Assembly (NCBI RefSeq): GCF_024345415.1
Contig: NZ_JAGQBB010000002.1
Location: 1-64,000 of the forward strand
Direction: 5' to 3'
From: Synechococcus sp. Tobar12-5m-g
GTDB lineage: Bacteria > Cyanobacteriota > Cyanobacteriia > PCC-6307 > Cyanobiaceae
DNA: 64,000 nucleotides
The notes beneath the pieces are model-generated. The model searched no databases, was not told where the DNA came from, and worked only from the letters and a program-made list of their open reading frames with translations. Each line of letters opens with the position of its first letter. Positions within the stretch are counted from its first letter, which is position 1. The position numbers and the translations under genes were made by a program. Below are positions 51,034 to 59,423 of the stretch, one piece after another.

Positions 51034-51440
51034 AGCTCGCAGCGGGAGCGGGCCATCAGATCGTCCATCCAGCGGCGGGCACGCTCGGCATCGGAGAAGG
51101 CCAGATCCTTCTGTTCGCCGTTGCCTACCAGGCGGATGCGGCAGCGGCCCTGGCTTTCTTCGGTGAGGGGCGCATCGCCGGATCCCAGGGCCATCAGCTC
51201 GAGCAGCTCAAGCTTGCTGATCACGAAACTGCCCTGGGGTTTGAGCTCGCCGGCCTCGAAGCTGCTCCAGGTGAGCACCCCCTCCAGCAGCCGGGCTGCT
51301 CCACAGCCATCCAGCTTGGCCAGCTCCGACCCCTCCGCCCAGCTGCGGAACAGCCGCTGCCGCCGCCGCTCCAGCCAGCCCAGGGCCGTGAGCAGCACGA
51401 ACACCACCAGGAGTGGCAACCAGAGCAGGCCGTGACTCAT
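51030..51440 (-). CDS. membrane-anchored protein of unknown function, ddl-ftsQ operon
   Basis: A 136-residue protein with an N-terminal membrane anchor ([20 protein letters not shown], about 4-23), then a basic linker and a soluble alpha/beta domain ([36 protein letters not shown]). It overlaps ddl and ftsQ by four bases each, so it is translationally coupled within a wall and division operon. I do not recognise the family; a divisome or envelope role is inferred from position. Confidence 0.7.
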
Positions 51441-52543
51441 GGCGCCAGCATCTCTCCGACCATCGACAGCTCATTTTCCCCTGCCGCCCCGACCAATTGG
51501 TGCACCAGGTCCTCAAGCGATACACCACTGGCCTGCCACAGCATCGGAAACATGCTCTGGCTGGTGAACCCTGGCAGGGTGTTGATCTCGTTCAGCCAGA
51601 TTGTGCCATTGGTTTCGTCGTAAAAAAAGTCCACCCGCGCCAGGCCGGAAGCAGCCACGGCCTGGCAGGCCAGGATGGCCAGGCGGCGCAGCTCCGCGCT
51701 GACGGCCTCCGGCAGTCGGGCCGGGATCTCGGTGCTGCTGAGCCCCTCGGTGTACTTGGTCTCGTAGTCATACCAGTCGGCCTCGAAGCGGATCTCGCCC
51801 ACCACCGAGGCCTGCAGGGGGCCTCCGGGCCCGTTGCCCAGGCTGCGCACGGCACATTCCAGCTCCCGGGCCGTCACTCCCTGCTCGACGACGAGGCGGG
51901 GATCAAAGGCCGCGGCCTGGCGCAACCCCGTCAGCAGTGAGCGGCGGTCGGTGGCCTTGCTGATCCCCACCGAAGAGCCCAGGTTGGCGGGCTTCACGAA
52001 GCAGGGGTAGCCCAGCTGCGCCTCGAGCCGATCCAGCAAGCGCTCAGGATCGGCACCCAGCTCGGCGGCCTGCACGGCGGCGTAGGGCACTTGGGGCAGG
52101 CCGGCGGCGGCGAAGGCGGCCTTCATGGCCTGCTTGTCCATGCCCAGCGCCGAGCCCAGCACACCCGATCCCACGAAGGCCACCCGCATCAAGGTGAACA
52201 GGCCCTGGATGGTGCCGTCCTCGCCATTGGGCCCGTGCAGCACAGGAAACCAGACCTCCACCTCGTTTGCCCCCTCCGGCAGCCCCTGGAAGCCAGCCAG
52301 AACCGGCGTGGCAGGAAGTTCCGAGCCGGTGGCAGGCAGGCCCCTGCGCAGGACGGCGTCGGCCACGGCGGGGGGCCACCAGCGCCCCACCTCGTCGATG
52401 TAGAAGCAACGCACCTGGTAGCGCTGGGCATTGGCGCCGCTTTGCAGCGCCTTCAGCACGGTGATCGCCGAAAGGATCGAAACGGCATGCTCCCCTGAGG
52501 CCCCGCCGAACACCAGGCCAAGACAGCGGGGAGGGGTGGGCAT
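51437..52543 (-). CDS. ddl: D-alanine-D-alanine ligase
   Basis: ATP-grasp ligase that makes the D-Ala-D-Ala terminus of peptidoglycan. The 368 residues from the ATG at 52543 show [17 protein letters not shown] near 9, [16 protein letters not shown] near 96, [17 protein letters not shown] near 172 and [11 protein letters not shown] near 318 with the metal-binding Glu and Asn. An upstream start would add ten residues. It lies 69 bases after miaB and overlaps the next gene by four bases. Confidence 0.96.
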
Positions 52544-52612
52544 GAAGCAAGCGGCGGGCCGGATCGGGGCCAAACGTATCAGCGATCCGCCCCCGGCCAG
52601 GGGCGGCCGGGG

Positions 52613-53971
52613 TCAGGCCGGCCGAGCGAGGGGGCGGCCGCTGAGCGAAAAGGCTCTGACCTCCTCAATCGCCACGATCACCAGGTCGCCGGCCCTGTGC
52701 CCTGCTGCGGGGAAAAAAGTGAGCCGGTTGGTGCGGGTGCGGCCCATCAGCTGGGCAGGGTCCTTCGGGTTGATCCCCTCGGCCAGCACCTCCTCGCTGC
52801 GGCCCAGGTAGCGGGTGCTGCGGGAGCGGGCGGTGCGCTCCACCAGGGCGTTGAGTTCCCGCAATCGCTCCACCTTCACGTCCTCGCGCAGCTGGTTTGG
52901 CCAATCGGCGGCGGGGGTGTTGGGGCGCGGCGAGTAGGCGGCGGTGTTGACAAGATCGAAGCCGATCTCCTCGATCAGGGCCAGGGTGCGGCGGAACTGG
53001 GCGTCGGTTTCACCGGGGAAGGCCACGATCACATCGGCGCTGATGGAGGCCTCCGGCATGCGCTCTCGGATGCGCTTGATGATGCGGCGGTAGCGCTCCA
53101 CCGTGTAGCCCCGGGCCATGGCCTTGAGCACGGCGTCATCGCCGCTCTGGAAGGGGATGTGGAAGTGCTCGCACACCTTGGGTAGCTCGGCGCAGGCGTC
53201 GACCAGCCGCTCGGTGAAGTAGCGGGGGTGGCTGGTGGCGAAGCGGATCCGCTCGATGCCAGCGACATCGTGGACCTGGCGAAGCAGATCGGTGAGGGTG
53301 TGTTGGCGGCGCCCCTCCGGGGTGATGCCGGGCAGGTCGCGGCCGTAGGCATCGATGTTCTGGCCCAGCAACGTGATCTCCTTGAAACCCCGGGCGGCCA
53401 GTTCCTCGATCTCCTGCCGGATCGCTTCGGGCGTGCGGCTCTGCTCCTGGCCCCGCACCGCGGGCACCACGCAGTAGGTGCAGCGCTCGTTGCAGCCGTA
53501 GATCACGTTCACCCAGGCGCAGACACTGCTGTCGCGCCGGGCGGTGGTGAGGTCTTCGAGGATCTGGCGCTCGCCAGTGGCCACCACCTGCTGGCCACTC
53601 TCCACCTGCTCCAGCAGCGCATCTAGGCGGTTGGCGTGCTGGGGGCCCATCACCAGGTCCAGCTCAGGCACCCGCCGCAGCAGGGCTTCGCCTTCCTGCT
53701 GGGCCACACAGCCCGCCACCACCAAGGTGAGATGGGGATTGAGGCGTTTGCGCTGGGCCTGGCGGCCCAGATAGCTGTAGACCTTCTGCTCGGCGTTGTC
53801 GCGGATCGTGCAGGTGTTGTAGAGCACCAGATCGGCCGTGTGCTCCCCCTCACCAGGCAGATAACCCATGGTTTCGAGGATGCCGGCCATGCGCTCGGAA
53901 TCCGCCTTGTTCATCTGGCAGCCGAAGGTGGTGATCCAGTAGCTGCCCCGGCGCGTCAGGGTGGATGTCAT
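52613..53971 (-). CDS. miaB: tRNA-2-methylthio-N6-dimethylallyladenosine synthase MiaB
   Basis: Radical SAM methylthiotransferase that modifies A37 of tRNAs reading codons that start with U. The 452 residues from the ATG at 53971 show the N-terminal Fe-S cysteines in [26 protein letters not shown] and [12 protein letters not shown], the radical SAM CxxxCxxC in [17 protein letters not shown] near 158-174, and a C-terminal TRAM domain. An upstream in-frame ATG overlaps the divergent epimerase gene and is less likely. The two starts are 34 bases apart. Confidence 0.96.
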
Positions 53972-54005: not shown

Positions 54006-55088
54006 ATGCAAGGGCGCCTGCGGCGGTTTTCACTCACCAAGCTGGTGCCCCTGGCGATCAGCCGGGGCACCACCGCCAGCGTCGAGCGGTTGCTGGTGGA
54101 GGTGGAGCACGACGGGGTGGTGGGGCAAGGCGAAACCGGCGGATTCGAGACCGGTCACCGGTCCTTCAGCACCGAAGTGGTGGCGAGGGAACTGGAAGAG
54201 GTCCTGCCGCGGCTCGGCAGCCAGGATGTCTCATCAAGGCCGTGGGATCCTGCCGTGCGCCAGGCGCTCGAACCGCTCCTGGCTCCCCTCTCGCCCCCGG
54301 CCCGCTGCGGCCTCGACCTGGCCCTCCACGATTGGTGGGGGAAGCGGCTGGGCCTGCCGCTCTGGCGGCTCTGGGGCCTCGATGCCCAGGCCTGCAGCGC
54401 CACCAGCGTCACCCTGGGCCTGGGCACGGTTGAGCAGGTGCTCGCCAGGCTGGAGCGGTGGCAACAGCAACTGGGCTGCCGCCCCAGCCGGGTGAAGCTC
54501 AAGCTGGGCAGCCCCGACGGCCCCGACCATGACCGGGCCCTGGTGGCGGCCGTGGCGGCCGCCACCAGGGCAGAACTTCAGGTGGATGCCAACGGCGGCT
54601 GGGACCTGGGCACGGCCCAGCGCCTGATCCCCTGGCTGGCCGAGCAAGGGGTGGTGCTGATGGAGCAACCCCTGCCGGCTCTGGCCGATCCGGAAGCCGA
54701 CACGGCCGGCTTCGCCGCCCTCGATCTGCATTGCCCGATCGTCCTGGTGGCCGATGAGAGTTGCTGGAACCTCGCGGACCTCCTGCGGCTGGCACCCCAT
54801 GTCGATGGCGTGAACATCAAGTTGCTCAAGAGTGGAGGGCTCAGCGAGGCTCTGCTGATGGCCCGGACAGCAGATCGGCTGGGGCTGGGGCTGATGCTGG
54901 GCTGCTACTCCGACAGCGCCCTGCTCAACGGCGCCGCCGCCCAGCTGTTGCCCCTTGTGCGCTGGCCGGATCTCGACAGCCACCTCAACCTGATCGACGA
55001 CCCCTTTGCGGGCCCCGTGCGGGTCGGCGACCTCCTGCGACCCTCGCCACGCCCAGGCCTTGGCGTGGTGGCGACAGCACCGTGCTGA
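54006..55088 (+). CDS. dgcA: dipeptide epimerase / N-acyl-D-Glu racemase family (DgcA-like)
   Basis: Enolase-superfamily enzyme of the muconate-lactonising subgroup that includes L-Ala-D/L-Glu epimerases and DgcA, an N-acyl-D-glutamate racemase. The 360 residues show the Lys pair in RVKLKLGSP near 162, metal ligands in [10 protein letters not shown] near 197, [10 protein letters not shown] near 217 and [10 protein letters not shown] near 245, and the C-terminal Lys in [12 protein letters not shown] near 267. The ATG at 54006 is preferred over an earlier start. The neighbouring DUF1611 (DgcN-like) gene, overlapping by seven bases, favours the DgcA assignment. o-Succinylbenzoate synthase is a less likely alternative. 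Confidence 0.72.
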
Positions 55089-56191
55089 GCGCCACCACGC
55101 CGATCGTGCTGCTCCAGCACGACGGGCTCACCAACCTCTCCGGCAAAACGGGCCTGGCCATGCTGCGCTATCGCCCAGGCCCGATCGTGGCGGTGGTGGA
55201 CCCCAGCCAGCCCACCGGCAGCCTGGAGGCGATCACCGGGATTCGGCGAACCGTGCCCGTGGTGAGCAATCTGCGGGCCGCCTTGCCCTTCGGCCCCGAA
55301 GCGGCCGTGGTGGGGCTGGCTCCCTCCGGCGGCCGCCTGCCGGACGGGCTGCGCGCCGACCTGGAGGCCGCCCTGGCGGCGGGGCTGAATCTGGCCAGTG
55401 GCCTGCACACCCGCCTGGGCAGCGACCCGCAGCTGGCGGCGCTGCTCAGGCCTGGCCAGTGGATCTGGGATCTGCGCCAGGAACCGGCGGGGCTGGCGGT
55501 GGCGGCCGGTCGGGCCGCGGCCCTGGGTGGCGAGCGCTTCCTGGCAGTCGGGACCGACATGGCCGTTGGGAAAATGAGCGCCTGCCTCGAGCTGACGGCG
55601 GCGGCCCGGCGACAGGGTATCGACGCCCGCTTCGTCGCCACGGGCCAAGCGGGGATCCTGATCAGCGGTGGCGGCGTTCCCCTCGACGCGGTGCGGCTGG
55701 ACTTCGCGGCTGGTGCCGTGGAAGCCGCTGTGCTGACTGCCGCCGCCGGCGCCGGGGACGACACCCTGCTGTTCGTGGAGGGCCAGGGGTCGCTCTGCCA
55801 TCCCGGCTCCAGCGCCAGCCTGCCCCTGATCCGCGGCAGCCAACCCACCGGCTTCCTGCTGGTCCACCGGGCCGGCCAGACCGCCCTGACCAACCACCCC
55901 GCCCTGGCCCTGCCGCCGCTGCGCCAGTTGATCGACACGATCGAGCAGCTGGCCGCCCTGGGCCGAACCGGCACGGCGCCTGCCCCACGGGTGCGGGCGG
56001 TGGCGCTCAACACGGCCCGGCTGGGCGAGGCGGAGGCCAGCTCCGCCTGTGCCGCGATCGGATCGGAAACAGGCCTCACGTGTGCCGATCCCGTCAGGAG
56101 CCTCGCAGCGGCCGATCGGCTGCTGGAGGCGTTAAGGGCGGACGAGGGGATTCGAACCCCCGGATGGCGGCACCACAAGCCGCTGCCTTAA
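55082..56191 (+). CDS. dgcN: DUF1611 / DgcN-like N-acyltransferase family protein
   Basis: DUF1611 protein; DgcN members transfer an acyl group to D-glutamate before racemisation by DgcA. The 369 residues from the GTG at 55082 comprise an N-terminal Rossmann-like domain and a P-loop-like C-terminal domain with FLAVGTDMAVGKMSACLEL near 157-175 and LFVEGQGSLCHPGSS near 230. The last 55 bases lie over the antisense tRNA-His gene, so the tail (GIRTPGWRHHKPLP) is read from the complement of the tRNA. GTG start overlapping the dgcA stop. Confidence 0.72.
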   Translation: MLSATTPIVLLQHDGLTNLSGKTGLAMLRYRPGPIVAVVDPSQPTGSLEAITGIRRTVPVVSNLRAALPFGPEAAVVGLAPSGGRLPDGLRADLEAALAAGLNLASGLHTRLGSDPQLAALLRPGQWIWDLRQEPAGLAVAAGRAAALGGERFLAVGTDMAVGKMSACLELTAAARRQGIDARFVATGQAGILISGGGVPLDAVRLDFAAGAVEAAVLTAAAGAGDDTLLFVEGQGSLCHPGSSASLPLIRGSQPTGFLLVHRAGQTALTNHPALALPPLRQLIDTIEQLAALGRTGTAPAPRVRAVALNTARLGEAEASSACAAIGSETGLTCADPVRSLAAADRLLEALRADEGIRTPGWRHHKPLP

Positions 56192-56210
56192 CCACTTGGC
56201 GACGCCCGCC
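56137..56210 (-). tRNA. trnH: tRNA-His (anticodon GTG)
   Basis: The reverse strand folds into a cloverleaf with a 7-base-pair acceptor stem (GCGGGCG with CGTCCGC, one G-T), the anticodon stem GCGGC/GCCGC around loop TTGTGGT (anticodon GTG) and a TTCGAAT T-loop. The G at 56210 pairs as G-1 with C73 at 56137, the hallmark of tRNA-His. No CCA is encoded. It lies antisense to the end of the DgcN-like gene. Confidence 0.95.
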
Positions 56211-56251: not shown

Positions 56252-56710
56252 TTGTCGTCCATCCGTCCAGCCACGCCGTTTCGTTGGGGGTTGGTTCTCG
56301 CCGCAGGGCTGGGCGTGGGCGGCGCAACGGTCGTTCTGGCGCTGACCAACCCAGGCCCTGCGGACTTTGAGGCCTTCGCCGCCGAGCAATTGGTGCAGCG
56401 GGCCACAGCGGATCTTTGCGGGCCGGACGGCCTGCCGATGGCCCTGCGACTGGTGGTACGGAACTGCCCGGAGTTGATTCGAAGCCAGCGCCATTTGCTC
56501 GGATCCCTGGCGGCCCAGGCGAGCGAACGCCAGAACTTCGGGCTGTTCAGCCTCTACCGCACCACGATCGGCGGACCCAGGGTGCTGCGGTTTCTGGAGC
56601 TGCCGGTCTACCGGGCCATCACCCTGGCGGGAGCAGGCCAGTTCGTGATCCTCAGCACGTCCAGTGATCGCAGCGAATCCGCCGCCGGCCATGCCGGCCC
56701 CCAGCCGTGA
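56252..56710 (+). CDS. DUF4359 family exported protein
   Basis: A 152-residue protein with a membrane anchor or signal segment near 11-33 (GLVLAAGLGVGGATVVLALTN), then a soluble domain with LPMALRLVVRNCPELIRSQR near 60 and FGLFSLYRTTIGGPRVLRFLELPVYR near 95, resembling the cyanobacterial DUF4359 family. The start is a TTG; an ATG upstream is out of frame. Its stop overlaps the amidohydrolase start (GTGA). Function unknown. Confidence 0.72.
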   Translation: MSSIRPATPFRWGLVLAAGLGVGGATVVLALTNPGPADFEAFAAEQLVQRATADLCGPDGLPMALRLVVRNCPELIRSQRHLLGSLAAQASERQNFGLFSLYRTTIGGPRVLRFLELPVYRAITLAGAGQFVILSTSSDRSESAAGHAGPQP

Positions 56711-57996
56711 CCGGATCCGCCCTGCCGCCGCTGCTGCTGCCCCGCGCCCTGATTGACCCCTTGCGCACCGACCTGCCTGCAGCCGACGCGGAAGGGCTCC
56801 TGGCGGTTCGGCTGGAGCATCACGCGGGCCTGATCAGCGGCATCCAGCCCTACCAGGCCCGGCCCGGCGAGCAGCTCCCGCTCGCCCTCACCCCCCTGGT
56901 GGAGCCCCATGCCCACCTCGACAAGGCCTTCACCTGGGCCGAGCACCCCAACCGTGCCGGCAGCATGGCCGGGGCCCTCGCCGCCAACCAGCAGGAGCAC
57001 CTCAGCCGCAGCCAGGAGCAGGTGGGCCGCCGGGGCGAGCGCGCCCTGCAGCGTGCCTGGCGCCAGGGCTCCCGGGCGATACGCAGCCACGTCGACAGCC
57101 TGGGTCCGGGCGCGGAGGCCAGCTGGGAGGCGCTGCTGGGCTTGCAACAGCAGTGGCGGGACCGGCTGACCCTCCAGCTGGTGGCGCTGGTGCCTGTGCG
57201 CCACTGGGCGACCGAAGCAGGAGAGCGCCTGGCCCGGCGCTTGAGCGGCGAGGCAGGGTCGGTGCTGCTCGGTGGTGTGCTCGGTGCCCCCTTTCCCCCA
57301 ACCCCGGAGGACCGGGCCGGTCTGCTGGCCCTGCTGCGGCTTGCCGATGGCCTGGGCTGCGGCGTCGATCTCCATGTCGATGAGAGCGCCGCCGGTGGCG
57401 GGGCTGGGGTGGCCCTGGTGGCCCGGCTGGTGCGGCAGGAGCGCACCGCCATTCCGGTCACCTGCAGCCACAGCTGCAGCATGTCCCTGCTGCCGGCGCG
57501 GCGCGGCCAGGATTTGGCCGAGTTGATGGCGGAAGCGGGGCTGGCGGTGGTGGCCCTGCCCACCACCAACCTGTGGCTGCTGGGCCACCGGGACGGCAAC
57601 ACCCCGGTGGCTCGGCCCATGGCCCCGATTCGCCAGCTGCAGCGGGCCGGTGTGACCGTGGCGGTCGGCGGGGACAACGTGCAGGATCCCTGGTTCCCCG
57701 GCGGCGACTTCGACCCCCTGGAGCTGCTGCGGCTCACGGTGCCGGCGGCCCACCTGGCCCCCTGGCAGCGCCAGGGGCTGATGCCCTTCACCACCGCCGC
57801 CTCCCGGCTGCTGGGGCTGGCCTGGGATGGGGTGCTGCGGCAGGGGGCGCCCGCCGATCTGGTCGTGCTGGCCGCCGGCAGCTGGAGCGACCTGCTGGCC
57901 CGCACCCCCCAGCGGCGGGTCCTCCGCCAGGGCACCTGGCTGCCTGGCCTGGATCCAGCGCCCCTGCTGCCGCTGCTGGAGGCCCTGCCGCGATGA
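56707..57996 (+). CDS. cytosine-deaminase-like amidohydrolase
   Basis: Metal-dependent hydrolase of the amidohydrolase superfamily, cytosine deaminase branch. The 429 residues show the metal motif VEPHAHLDKAFTWAEH near 65, HVDSLGPGAEASWEAL near 118, DLHVDESAAGGGAG near 222, CSHSCSMSLLPARRGQ near 255 and the metal Asp in VAVGGDNVQDPWFPGGDFDPL near 320. The substrate may be cytosine or another cyclic amide. The GTG overlaps the previous stop, and the stop overlaps the FAD oxidase start, so the three genes are coupled. Confidence 0.82.
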   Translation: MTGSALPPLLLPRALIDPLRTDLPAADAEGLLAVRLEHHAGLISGIQPYQARPGEQLPLALTPLVEPHAHLDKAFTWAEHPNRAGSMAGALAANQQEHLSRSQEQVGRRGERALQRAWRQGSRAIRSHVDSLGPGAEASWEALLGLQQQWRDRLTLQLVALVPVRHWATEAGERLARRLSGEAGSVLLGGVLGAPFPPTPEDRAGLLALLRLADGLGCGVDLHVDESAAGGGAGVALVARLVRQERTAIPVTCSHSCSMSLLPARRGQDLAELMAEAGLAVVALPTTNLWLLGHRDGNTPVARPMAPIRQLQRAGVTVAVGGDNVQDPWFPGGDFDPLELLRLTVPAAHLAPWQRQGLMPFTTAASRLLGLAWDGVLRQGAPADLVVLAAGSWSDLLARTPQRRVLRQGTWLPGLDPAPLLPLLEALPR

Positions 57997-59423
57997 CCGC
58001 CCAACCTGTGCCCGACCTCTTGCCAAGCGAGCTGCCGGCTGGATTGCCCCCCCTGGCCACGGCACAGCAGCTGGCGGCGATCACGGCCGAACTCGGCGGG
58101 GTCAGTGGGTTGCGCCTGGTGAGCAGCGGCGCGGAGCTGGAGCGCCTGTCCCATGACCGGTTCGACTACTCGCCAGTGCTGGCCCCCTTGTTGCGCGGGA
58201 AACGGGCCCAGCTCATCGTCCAGGCCACAACCACGGACCAGGTGCTGCGGGTGGCGAAGGCCTGTGCCCGCCACGCTGTCGCCCTCACCGTCCGCGGCGC
58301 CGGCACCGGCAATTACGGGCAGTGCGTACCCCTGGCCGGCGGGGTGGTGCTCGATCTCAGTGGCCTCAACCGGCTGCGCCGGCTGGATCCGCTCAGCAAC
58401 ATCGTCACGGTGGAAGCGGGCTGCCTGCTGGCTGATCTGGACCGGCGGCTGGGTGCTTTGGGGCGGGCTGTTCGGTTGGCGCCCAGCACCTGGCGCAGCG
58501 CGACGGCGGCGGGCTTCATCGCCGGTGGGTCGGGCGGGATCGGTTCCCTGCGCTTTGGATTTCTGCGCGATCCCGGCAACCTGGTCGGCCTGGAGGTGGT
58601 GACCCTGGAGCCCGAACCCCGTCTGCTCCAGCTCGATGCCCCAGCCAGCCGCGCCCTCAACCATGCCTACGGCACCAACGGCATCCTCACTGCCGTGCAC
58701 CTTCCCACGGCCGCCGCGGTGGCCTGGCAGCAGCTGGTGGTGGACTTCGAGAGCTGGGATGCCGCCCTCGCAGCCGCCCGCCTGCTTCCGGCCACGGCCC
58801 TGCTGCTCAACAGTCTCTGCCTGCTGGAGGCCCCGGTGGCGCACTGCATGCCTGCCCCTGGGGGCAGCGGGCCGGGCGGTTGCCCCCAGGCCCGCGGCCA
58901 TCGAATGCTGGTGCTGGCCGCACCCGATGCCCTGAGCACCCTGGAGCCCCTGCTGGCGGAGCTGGGGGGAACCCTGGTGTGGCAGGCAGCGGAGCAGGGG
59001 GACCGCGGACTCCCCCTGCGAGAACTCAGCTGGAACCACACCACCCTGCACATGCGGGCCCGCGACCCCGGCTGGACCTATCTGCAACTGCTGCTGCCCC
59101 AACCCGAAGCCCCCGCCCTGGGGGCCTTGAAGCAGCGCTGGGGGGACGATCTGCTTTGGCACCTGGAGGGGGTGCGGCAGCAGGGGGGCCAGCGGCTCGT
59201 GGCCCTGCCGCTGGTGCGCTGGCGGGGCGCCGCGGCCCTGGAGTCCCTGATAGGCCAGGCCCGGGATCTCGGCGTGATGCTGTTCAACCCCCATGCCCTC
59301 ACCGTCGAGGATGGGGGACTCGGGGTGATCGACGCCGATCAGGTGGCCGCCAAGGCCGCCCACGACCCGGCCGGACTGCTCAACCCCGGCAAGCTGCGCG
59401 GCTGGGCGAAGCTTCCACACTGA
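57993..59423 (+). CDS. FAD-linked oxidase (GlcD/BBE-type)
   Basis: Flavoenzyme of the PCMH/VAO type. The 476 residues show the FAD-binding region with LTVRGAGTGNYGQCVPLAGG near 95-114, TVEAGCLLADLDRRLGALGR near 136 and the C-terminal AAKAAHDPAGLLNPGKL, the usual end of such oxidases. The substrate cannot be read; D-lactate, glycolate and other hydroxy acids are typical for relatives. The ATG overlaps the amidohydrolase stop. It ends the forward run, converging on a pentapeptide gene. Confidence 0.85.
   Translation: MTAQPVPDLLPSELPAGLPPLATAQQLAAITAELGGVSGLRLVSSGAELERLSHDRFDYSPVLAPLLRGKRAQLIVQATTTDQVLRVAKACARHAVALTVRGAGTGNYGQCVPLAGGVVLDLSGLNRLRRLDPLSNIVTVEAGCLLADLDRRLGALGRAVRLAPSTWRSATAAGFIAGGSGGIGSLRFGFLRDPGNLVGLEVVTLEPEPRLLQLDAPASRALNHAYGTNGILTAVHLPTAAAVAWQQLVVDFESWDAALAAARLLPATALLLNSLCLLEAPVAHCMPAPGGSGPGGCPQARGHRMLVLAAPDALSTLEPLLAELGGTLVWQAAEQGDRGLPLRELSWNHTTLHMRARDPGWTYLQLLLPQPEAPALGALKQRWGDDLLWHLEGVRQQGGQRLVALPLVRWRGAAALESLIGQARDLGVMLFNPHALTVEDGGLGVIDADQVAAKAAHDPAGLLNPGKLRGWAKLPH

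Follow-up and report, generated by a model that had tools for sequence, protein, structure and literature searches.

What do two overlapping genes, one for a racemase-like protein and the other for a DUF1611 protein, do together in a picocyanobacterium, and on which substrate? The pair lies in the genome of Synechococcus sp. Tobar12-5m-g (2.95 Mb), within a stretch of 64,000 nucleotides that was analysed as a whole and is called the window here. The first-pass annotation had read it as a DgcA-DgcN-like cassette for the recycling of D-glutamate, and the coordinates and the gene overlap that it gave were found to be exact, with both genes complete. The dgcA-like gene (54006-55088, + strand) starts with ATG and encodes a 360-aa protein of the enolase superfamily (MLE subgroup), an N-acyl-amino-acid racemase or dipeptide epimerase. 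The dgcN-like gene (55082-56191, + strand) encodes a DUF1611 protein of 369 aa with a Rossmann-like and a P-loop domain, which is probably a D-amino-acid N-acyltransferase. The frame of this gene is open from 54761, GTG at 55082 is its likely start, and its stop ends at 56191. The two genes have 7 bp in common (55082-55088, + strand), and the first start codon of the DUF1611 frame is found at an identical 7-bp overlap in five relatives (L168, L169, L170, L171, and L172). This overlap suggests that the two genes are translationally coupled. A scan for signals of the pair found no promoter-like sites and one terminator-like site versus 0.9 expected, and a promoter or terminator for the pair was therefore rejected.

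We compared the distribution of the two genes in 194 genomes of the phylum. A strong DUF1611 match was present in 57 of them, and the racemase-like gene was present in all 57. Neither gene was found in 136 genomes, and the single genome with the racemase-like gene and no DUF1611 is 9% contaminated. The co-occurrence is highly significant by Fisher's test (p = 9e-49, shared ancestry ignored). These counts leave out six genomes with a weak DUF1611 match (G124, G125, G136, G148, G166, and G176) and four with a weak racemase match (G001, G016, G050, and G139; at most 51 bits), and they include G168, whose DUF1611 is split in two and contains a stop. With the weak genomes included, DUF1611 is present in 63 and the racemase-like gene in 62 of the 194. 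Of the 57 genomes, 52 have the two genes on the same strand and within 2.5 kb of each other, with the racemase-like gene upstream in 49, and the other five have them unlinked. A draw of 201 genomes from the family of the window gave a similar picture, with DUF1611 in 107 genomes and the racemase-like gene in 104, all 104 of which carry DUF1611. The three genomes that have DUF1611 and lack the racemase-like gene all carry a second type of DUF1611 that has a racemase of its own. Furthermore, in one relative of the same family (G302), the two proteins are fused in a single uninterrupted ORF of 715 aa (L163, 5039-7186, - strand). Since the pair is almost always retained or lost jointly and has been fused once, the dgcA-like and dgcN-like proteins very probably work as one unit.

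Among 80 named loci, the racemase-like gene is upstream of DUF1611 on the same strand in 66 and on the opposite strand in one, and it is absent from the stretch covered in 13. The sponge symbiont Candidatus Synechococcus spongiarum retains the pair (L236 and L238), and DUF1611 also has a match in the control genome of Synechococcus elongatus. In three loci (L144, L148, and L149), other genes are inserted between the two. We considered these as members of the pathway and rejected them, because each insert contains an ORF for a Uma2-family endonuclease and one contains an ORF with a TIR domain, so that they resemble insertions of a mobile or defence kind.

In the racemase-like protein, MR_MLE_N and MR_MLE_C are both above the Pfam cut-offs. 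Its best NCBIfam model is DgcA (NF042940) with 162.9 bits, which is below the equivalog cut-off of 400, and the L-Ala-D/L-Glu epimerase model gives 112.6 bits. The DgcAs of Pseudoalteromonas (402.0 bits) and Vibrio pelagius (413.7 bits), which served as controls, are above the NF042940 cut-off, and the identity of the racemase-like protein to annotated DgcA is 27-32%. Assignment to o-succinylbenzoate synthase (MenC), another enolase subgroup which the first-pass annotation had itself named as speaking against its reading, was rejected, because the MenC models give at most 55.7 bits on this protein and another locus of the genome (C1:125202-126071) matches MenC better, with 136.8 versus 24 bits under the same model, though still below the cut-off of 259 of that model.

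The alignments and trees cover part of the available sequences, namely 43 racemases and 44 type-I and 16 type-II DUF1611 proteins. The KxK motif (K164 and K166), D194, E220, D250, K272, the DxD motif (D322 and D324), and R20 are intact in all 43 cyanobacterial racemases, and they are likewise intact in three annotated DgcAs and in E. coli YcjG. All 43 proteins thus have the features of the Lys/Lys racemase (MLE) subgroup, which are KxK, the D/E/D metal ligands, and a second Lys. Enolase-type N-acylamino-acid racemases use a metal and a lysine pair in catalysis (PMC8142540). The predicted structure has a mean pLDDT of 88.6, with values below 50 at residues 19-22, the loop of R20. Its best fold match is 3IJI, a dipeptide epimerase with L-Ala-D-Glu (TM 0.85/0.90).

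This match brings in another explanation, in which the racemase-like protein takes part in the recycling of murein peptides as an L-Ala-D/L-Glu epimerase comparable to YcjG, and the DUF1611 protein acts otherwise on the same peptides. The nearest folds are dipeptide epimerases, the L-Ala-D-Glu enzyme 3IJI being the first, and E. coli YcjG and B. subtilis YkfB have the same fold, the same Lys/Lys metal chemistry, and the DxD motif as the cyanobacterial protein, as well as the ISRG-type arginine (compared for YcjG only). We take DxD to hold the dipeptide by its free amino group in dipeptide epimerases, and R20, the ISRG-type arginine, presumably meets the side-chain carboxylate in those that are specific for Glu. 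However, the DxD of the 43 cyanobacterial racemases is also found in the annotated DgcAs and is non-discriminating for a dipeptide epimerase, and DxD and the arginine do not tell the two activities apart, because both are also present in YcjG. In the tree, the cyanobacterial proteins form their own clade (100/99) on long branches, YcjG, an L-Ala-D/L-Glu epimerase, is placed among the three annotated DgcAs, DgcA as a single group occurs in 0% of the bootstrap trees, and the innermost fork is weak (85/26). A separation of DgcA from L-Ala-D/L-Glu epimerase by motifs or by the tree therefore failed, and since YcjG groups with the annotated DgcAs and DgcA is no clean clade, sequence alone cannot fix the substrate of the racemase.

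Murein-peptide recycling deserves attention as an alternative because a cyanobacterial endopeptidase makes L-Ala-gamma-D-Glu (PMC2954226) and because cyanobacterial relatives were named L-Ala-D/L-Glu epimerases earlier (PMC3605383). It is also consistent with the occurrence of NlpC/P60, which is present in 49 of 58 racemase carriers versus 60 of 136 non-carriers (p = 1e-7, shared ancestry ignored). However, an NlpC/P60 match at E 0.001 is absent in nine of the 58 carriers, whereas the racemase gene is absent in none of the 57 genomes with strong DUF1611. Among the ORF clusters that were named, none of the recurrent neighbours of the pair is a peptidase gene, and the fixed partner is DUF1611. 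In E. coli, ycjG adjoins mpaA, whereas the cyanobacterial racemase-like gene adjoins DUF1611; ykfB of B. subtilis adjoins ykfC (PMC2954226). The fusion with a protein of the DgcN fold is also left unexplained. We consider it quite unlikely that the protein is such an epimerase.

The partner protein carries DUF1611_N (PF17396) and DUF1611_C (PF07755), both above cut-off (82.2 over 22.6 and 213.9 over 25 bits). Its sole NCBIfam match is DgcN (NF041892) with 218.3 bits, below the equivalog cut-off of 480, which the DgcN of Pseudoalteromonas passes as a control with 493.1 bits. The identity to annotated DgcN is 32-36%, and the cyanobacterial type-I proteins form a clade with long branches apart from the proteobacterial enzymes, with a support of 92/83 that is short of the strict mark. 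The model of the protein (pLDDT 89.9) has as its best fold match 2OBN, which is Ava_3511 of Anabaena variabilis, titled only "duf1611 family protein" and 50-51% identical along almost the entire sequence. The second is 7XRJ, titled N-acetyltransferase DgcN (TM 0.76/0.84, 32% identity, E 2e-24), and the third is 2G0T from Thermotoga. The best fold matches, 7XRJ and 2OBN for the DUF1611 protein and the dipeptide epimerase 3IJI for the racemase-like protein, count in favour of the first-pass reading.

The P-loop of the DUF1611 protein is GTDMAVGKM (residue numbers count from the codon at 55085), and its residues G156, D158, G162, and K163 are kept in more than 95% of each DUF1611 group. This conservation, together with the weaker fold matches to nucleotide-dependent enzymes such as dethiobiotin synthetase (E ~2e-4), would also suit a ligase-like P-loop enzyme that couples ATP to N-acylation (or phosphorylation) and uses no acyl-CoA. 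However, the closest characterised structure, 7XRJ, bears the title of an N-acetyltransferase, and N-acetyltransferase is also the name of the enzyme class in PMC11747546. We regard a ligase of this kind as highly improbable.

An N-acyltransferase of the DgcN type is also the reading to which individual residues of DUF1611 point. Six positions are common to the 44 cyanobacterial type-I proteins and five DgcN-type proteins and are different in 18 proteins encoded beside PLP racemases; the reverse pattern, in which type I is like the PLP-racemase-associated type and unlike the DgcN type, is found at two positions. In Haladaptatus, DUF1611 lies between two dipeptide-epimerase-family genes, and of the four positions read, D206, S236, and T310 agree and A211 is replaced by I.

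The reading that we lean toward is that the pair is a divergent cyanobacterial two-step unit of the DgcN-DgcA type for the salvage of D-glutamate, which converts D-glutamate to N-acyl-L-glutamate. The DgcN-DgcA pathway of D-glutamate was reportedly described by Yu et al. 2023 (ISME J 17:537) in marine Proteobacteria and halophilic archaea. The cyanobacterial pair resembles it in the adjacency of DUF1611 and an enolase-superfamily racemase, in the folds, in the catalytic residues, and in the best NCBIfam models. In contrast, the cyanobacterial proteins are only 27-36% identical to those of the known pathway, are far below the equivalog cut-offs, and form separate clades. The gene order is also different, with DgcN first in Pseudoalteromonas, Vibrio pelagius, and Pantoea and the racemase first in 49 of the 52 linked cyanobacterial pairs. 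As both proteins score under half of the cut-offs, have this low identity, and belong to their own clades, we do not file them as equivalogs of DgcN and DgcA; the pair is a divergent variant, which probably functions in the same way. The claim of a DgcA-DgcN-like cassette therefore holds with regard to the best models, the folds, the conserved pairing, and the fusion, and it does not hold as membership in the equivalog families. Its interpretation as D-glutamate salvage is partly supported: it appears right in kind, with D-glutamate as a putative substrate.

In the first step of the proposed pathway, the DUF1611 protein would N-acylate D-glutamate to N-acetyl-D-glutamate, most likely with acetyl-CoA bound at the P-loop. 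This N-acylation would be effectively irreversible and would fix the direction of the pathway. In the second step, the enolase-superfamily protein would hold the carboxylate of the N-acyl-glutamate on a divalent metal bound by D194, E220, and D250, and the alpha proton would be taken off via K166 or K272 and put back on the opposite face to give N-acetyl-L-glutamate; the chemistry of this step is well supported, and N-acyl-glutamate is its presumed substrate. N-acetyl-L-glutamate is an intermediate of the arginine pathway, so a dedicated deacylase is unnecessary for entry, and in the third step, the product could enter this pathway directly. The genome encodes one ArgJ and a single M20 amidohydrolase (TIGR01891). 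For the known D-glutamate pathway, EC 2.3.1.312 (N-acetyltransferase) and EC 5.1.1.25 have been assigned (PMC11747546).

The same two-step logic could be applied to a different D-amino acid, such as D-Asp or D-Gln, or could use an acyl donor other than acetyl-CoA. This would be compatible with the divergent clades of the cyanobacterial proteins and with one position of the active-site strand of the racemase, which is Tyr in 41 of the 43 cyanobacterial proteins and Met in all seven references. However, R20, the presumed contact of the side-chain carboxylate in Glu-specific epimerases, is kept in all 43, and the positions typical of DgcN-type proteins are retained in DUF1611. We consider a change of substrate or donor unlikely.

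The genes around the pair were also compared. The first-pass annotation had suggested the amidohydrolase downstream (56707-57996, + strand) as a candidate deacylase. Its best model is that of the cytosine deaminase PRK07583 (268 bits, below the cut-off of 403). The amidohydrolase gene is present in 171 of the 201 family genomes versus 104 of 201 for the racemase-like gene, and among 20 listed family genomes that lack it, 8 carry the racemase-like gene. Of the 37 picocyanobacterial loci, 27 have the amidohydrolase gene next to the pair, whereas none of 43 other named loci does. On these grounds, it was rejected as the deacylase and partner of the pair. The other neighbours are miaB (52613-53968, - strand), which is divergent from the pair and outside the pathway, ddl for D-alanine--D-alanine ligase (51437-52573, - strand), which provides context, and the gene of an FAD-linked oxidase (57999-59423, + strand). 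Near the pair in the 37 picocyanobacterial loci, where several contigs end early, miaB was found in 34, tRNA-His in 34, DUF4359 in 28, ddl in 26, and the FAD oxidase in 25; none of these is near the pair in the 43 other named loci. Within the family of the window, miaB, ddl, and the genes downstream, the amidohydrolase and the oxidase among them, recur as lineage synteny. In L139, from a genome of another family, miaB and ddl also lie beside the pair. When the ORFs of 40 type-I loci and the window were clustered and those over the pair were set aside, each neighbour family adjoined at most 4 of the 21 pairs that lie outside the family of the window, and a conserved third gene of the pathway was thus rejected. 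The tRNA-His (GTG) gene (56136-56209, - strand) overlaps the 3' end of the dgcN-like gene by 56 bp in antisense orientation, and an overlap of this kind is found in 6 of 34 picocyanobacterial loci with the tRNA.

The genome contains a second DUF1611 gene (C18:32489-33082), which overlaps by 4 bp the gene of a PLP racemase (Ala_racemase_N). The best model of the latter is the ornithine racemase Orr (296.8 of 480 bits), and no solved chain matching it at E 0.001 was found. This DUF1611/PLP-racemase system is present in 4 of the 194 phylum genomes and in 36 of the 201 family genomes. Of 37 Orr matches, 36 lie next to a DUF1611 gene, and the remaining one is a fragment. Plasmids of Ruegeria and Vibrio cyclitrophicus bear the same pair. 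These systems are similar to the pair of the window in that DUF1611 adjoins or overlaps a racemase gene, whereas the racemase fold is unrelated, DUF1611 comes first, and Q, A, and H are found in place of D206, S236, and T310. A PLP racemase requires a free amino group on its substrate, and any N-acylation in the second system would therefore have to come after racemisation.

It is possible, though doubtful at present, that DUF1611 proteins generally modify amino acids as partners of racemases and have joined up with two unrelated racemase folds, that the enolase-type pair of cyanobacteria is a conserved shunt from D-glutamate to N-acyl-L-glutamate which returns D-glutamate of the cell wall to the arginine/cyanophycin branch, and that the PLP-type pair provides the cell with another D-amino-acid system. 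If the reading of the pair as a D-glutamate salvage unit is true, 57 of the 194 sampled phylum genomes hold a two-enzyme route for the salvage of D-amino acids, cell-wall turnover is tied to the pool of N-acetylglutamate, and the cyanobacterial structure 2OBN, which is titled only by its DUF1611 domain, gains a testable function. The second DUF1611-racemase pair would broaden the meaning of the DUF1611 domain. The pair of the window is real, conserved, and coherent, and the pathway that it probably serves is of a known kind, although its setting is unexpected and widespread. In the accessible parts of the openly licensed literature, no account was found of a DUF1611/racemase pair in cyanobacteria or of such a two-enzyme salvage route for D-amino acids in phototrophs. 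The mentions of DUF1611 found in the same parts of that literature concern Dickeya and its phages.

Among the genomes of the window's family, one has the racemase-like (dgcA-like) gene and the DUF1611 (dgcN-like) gene joined: a single ORF (L163 5039-7186, minus strand) encodes a natural fusion of the two proteins of 715 aa. The pair is interrupted in three other cyanobacterial genomes, by inserts of 0.9 to 2 kb (L144 6065-7012, L148 6019-6958 and L149 6035-8014); each insert carries an ORF for a Uma2-family endonuclease, and that in L149 additionally carries a TIR-domain ORF. The order is reversed, with the DUF1611 gene first, in the three pair-bearing genomes of family f35 (G071, G090 and G100), and both f35 racemases checked (2/2) have Met instead of Tyr at the GC[YM] position of the active-site strand. 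The f35 loci L154 and L174 come from another class of the phylum. The pair is also kept in the sponge symbiont Candidatus Synechococcus spongiarum (L236, L238); no amidohydrolase match was found in the 4 kb searched downstream of it in L236, whereas the L238 sequence stops short of covering this stretch.

In the window, a tRNA-His gene (56136-56209) lies antisense to the dgcN-like gene and covers its last 56 bp, so that the C-terminal tail of the protein, ...GIRTPGWRHHKPLP, is read from the complement of the tRNA. The predicted structure of the protein gives this tail low confidence. Among 34 picocyanobacterial loci containing the tRNA, the overlap was found in six.

The genome of the strain carries a second DUF1611 gene on contig C18, which overlaps by 4 bp the gene of an Orr-like PLP racemase; the two genes occupy L003 7303-8433 and 8430-9635, both on the minus strand. 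This racemase is present in 36 of the 201 family genomes, and DUF1611 nearly always adjoins it.

Outside the cyanobacteria, the annotated dgcN on a plasmid of Sinorhizobium meliloti (L202 3569-4576) adjoins genes annotated as Glu/Leu/Phe/Val dehydrogenase and aminotransferase, and the 8.5 kb searched around it gave no racemase match. On a Haladaptatus plasmid (L198 2714-6075), DUF1611 is flanked on each side by a different dipeptide-epimerase-family gene, one of which is without the DxD pair.
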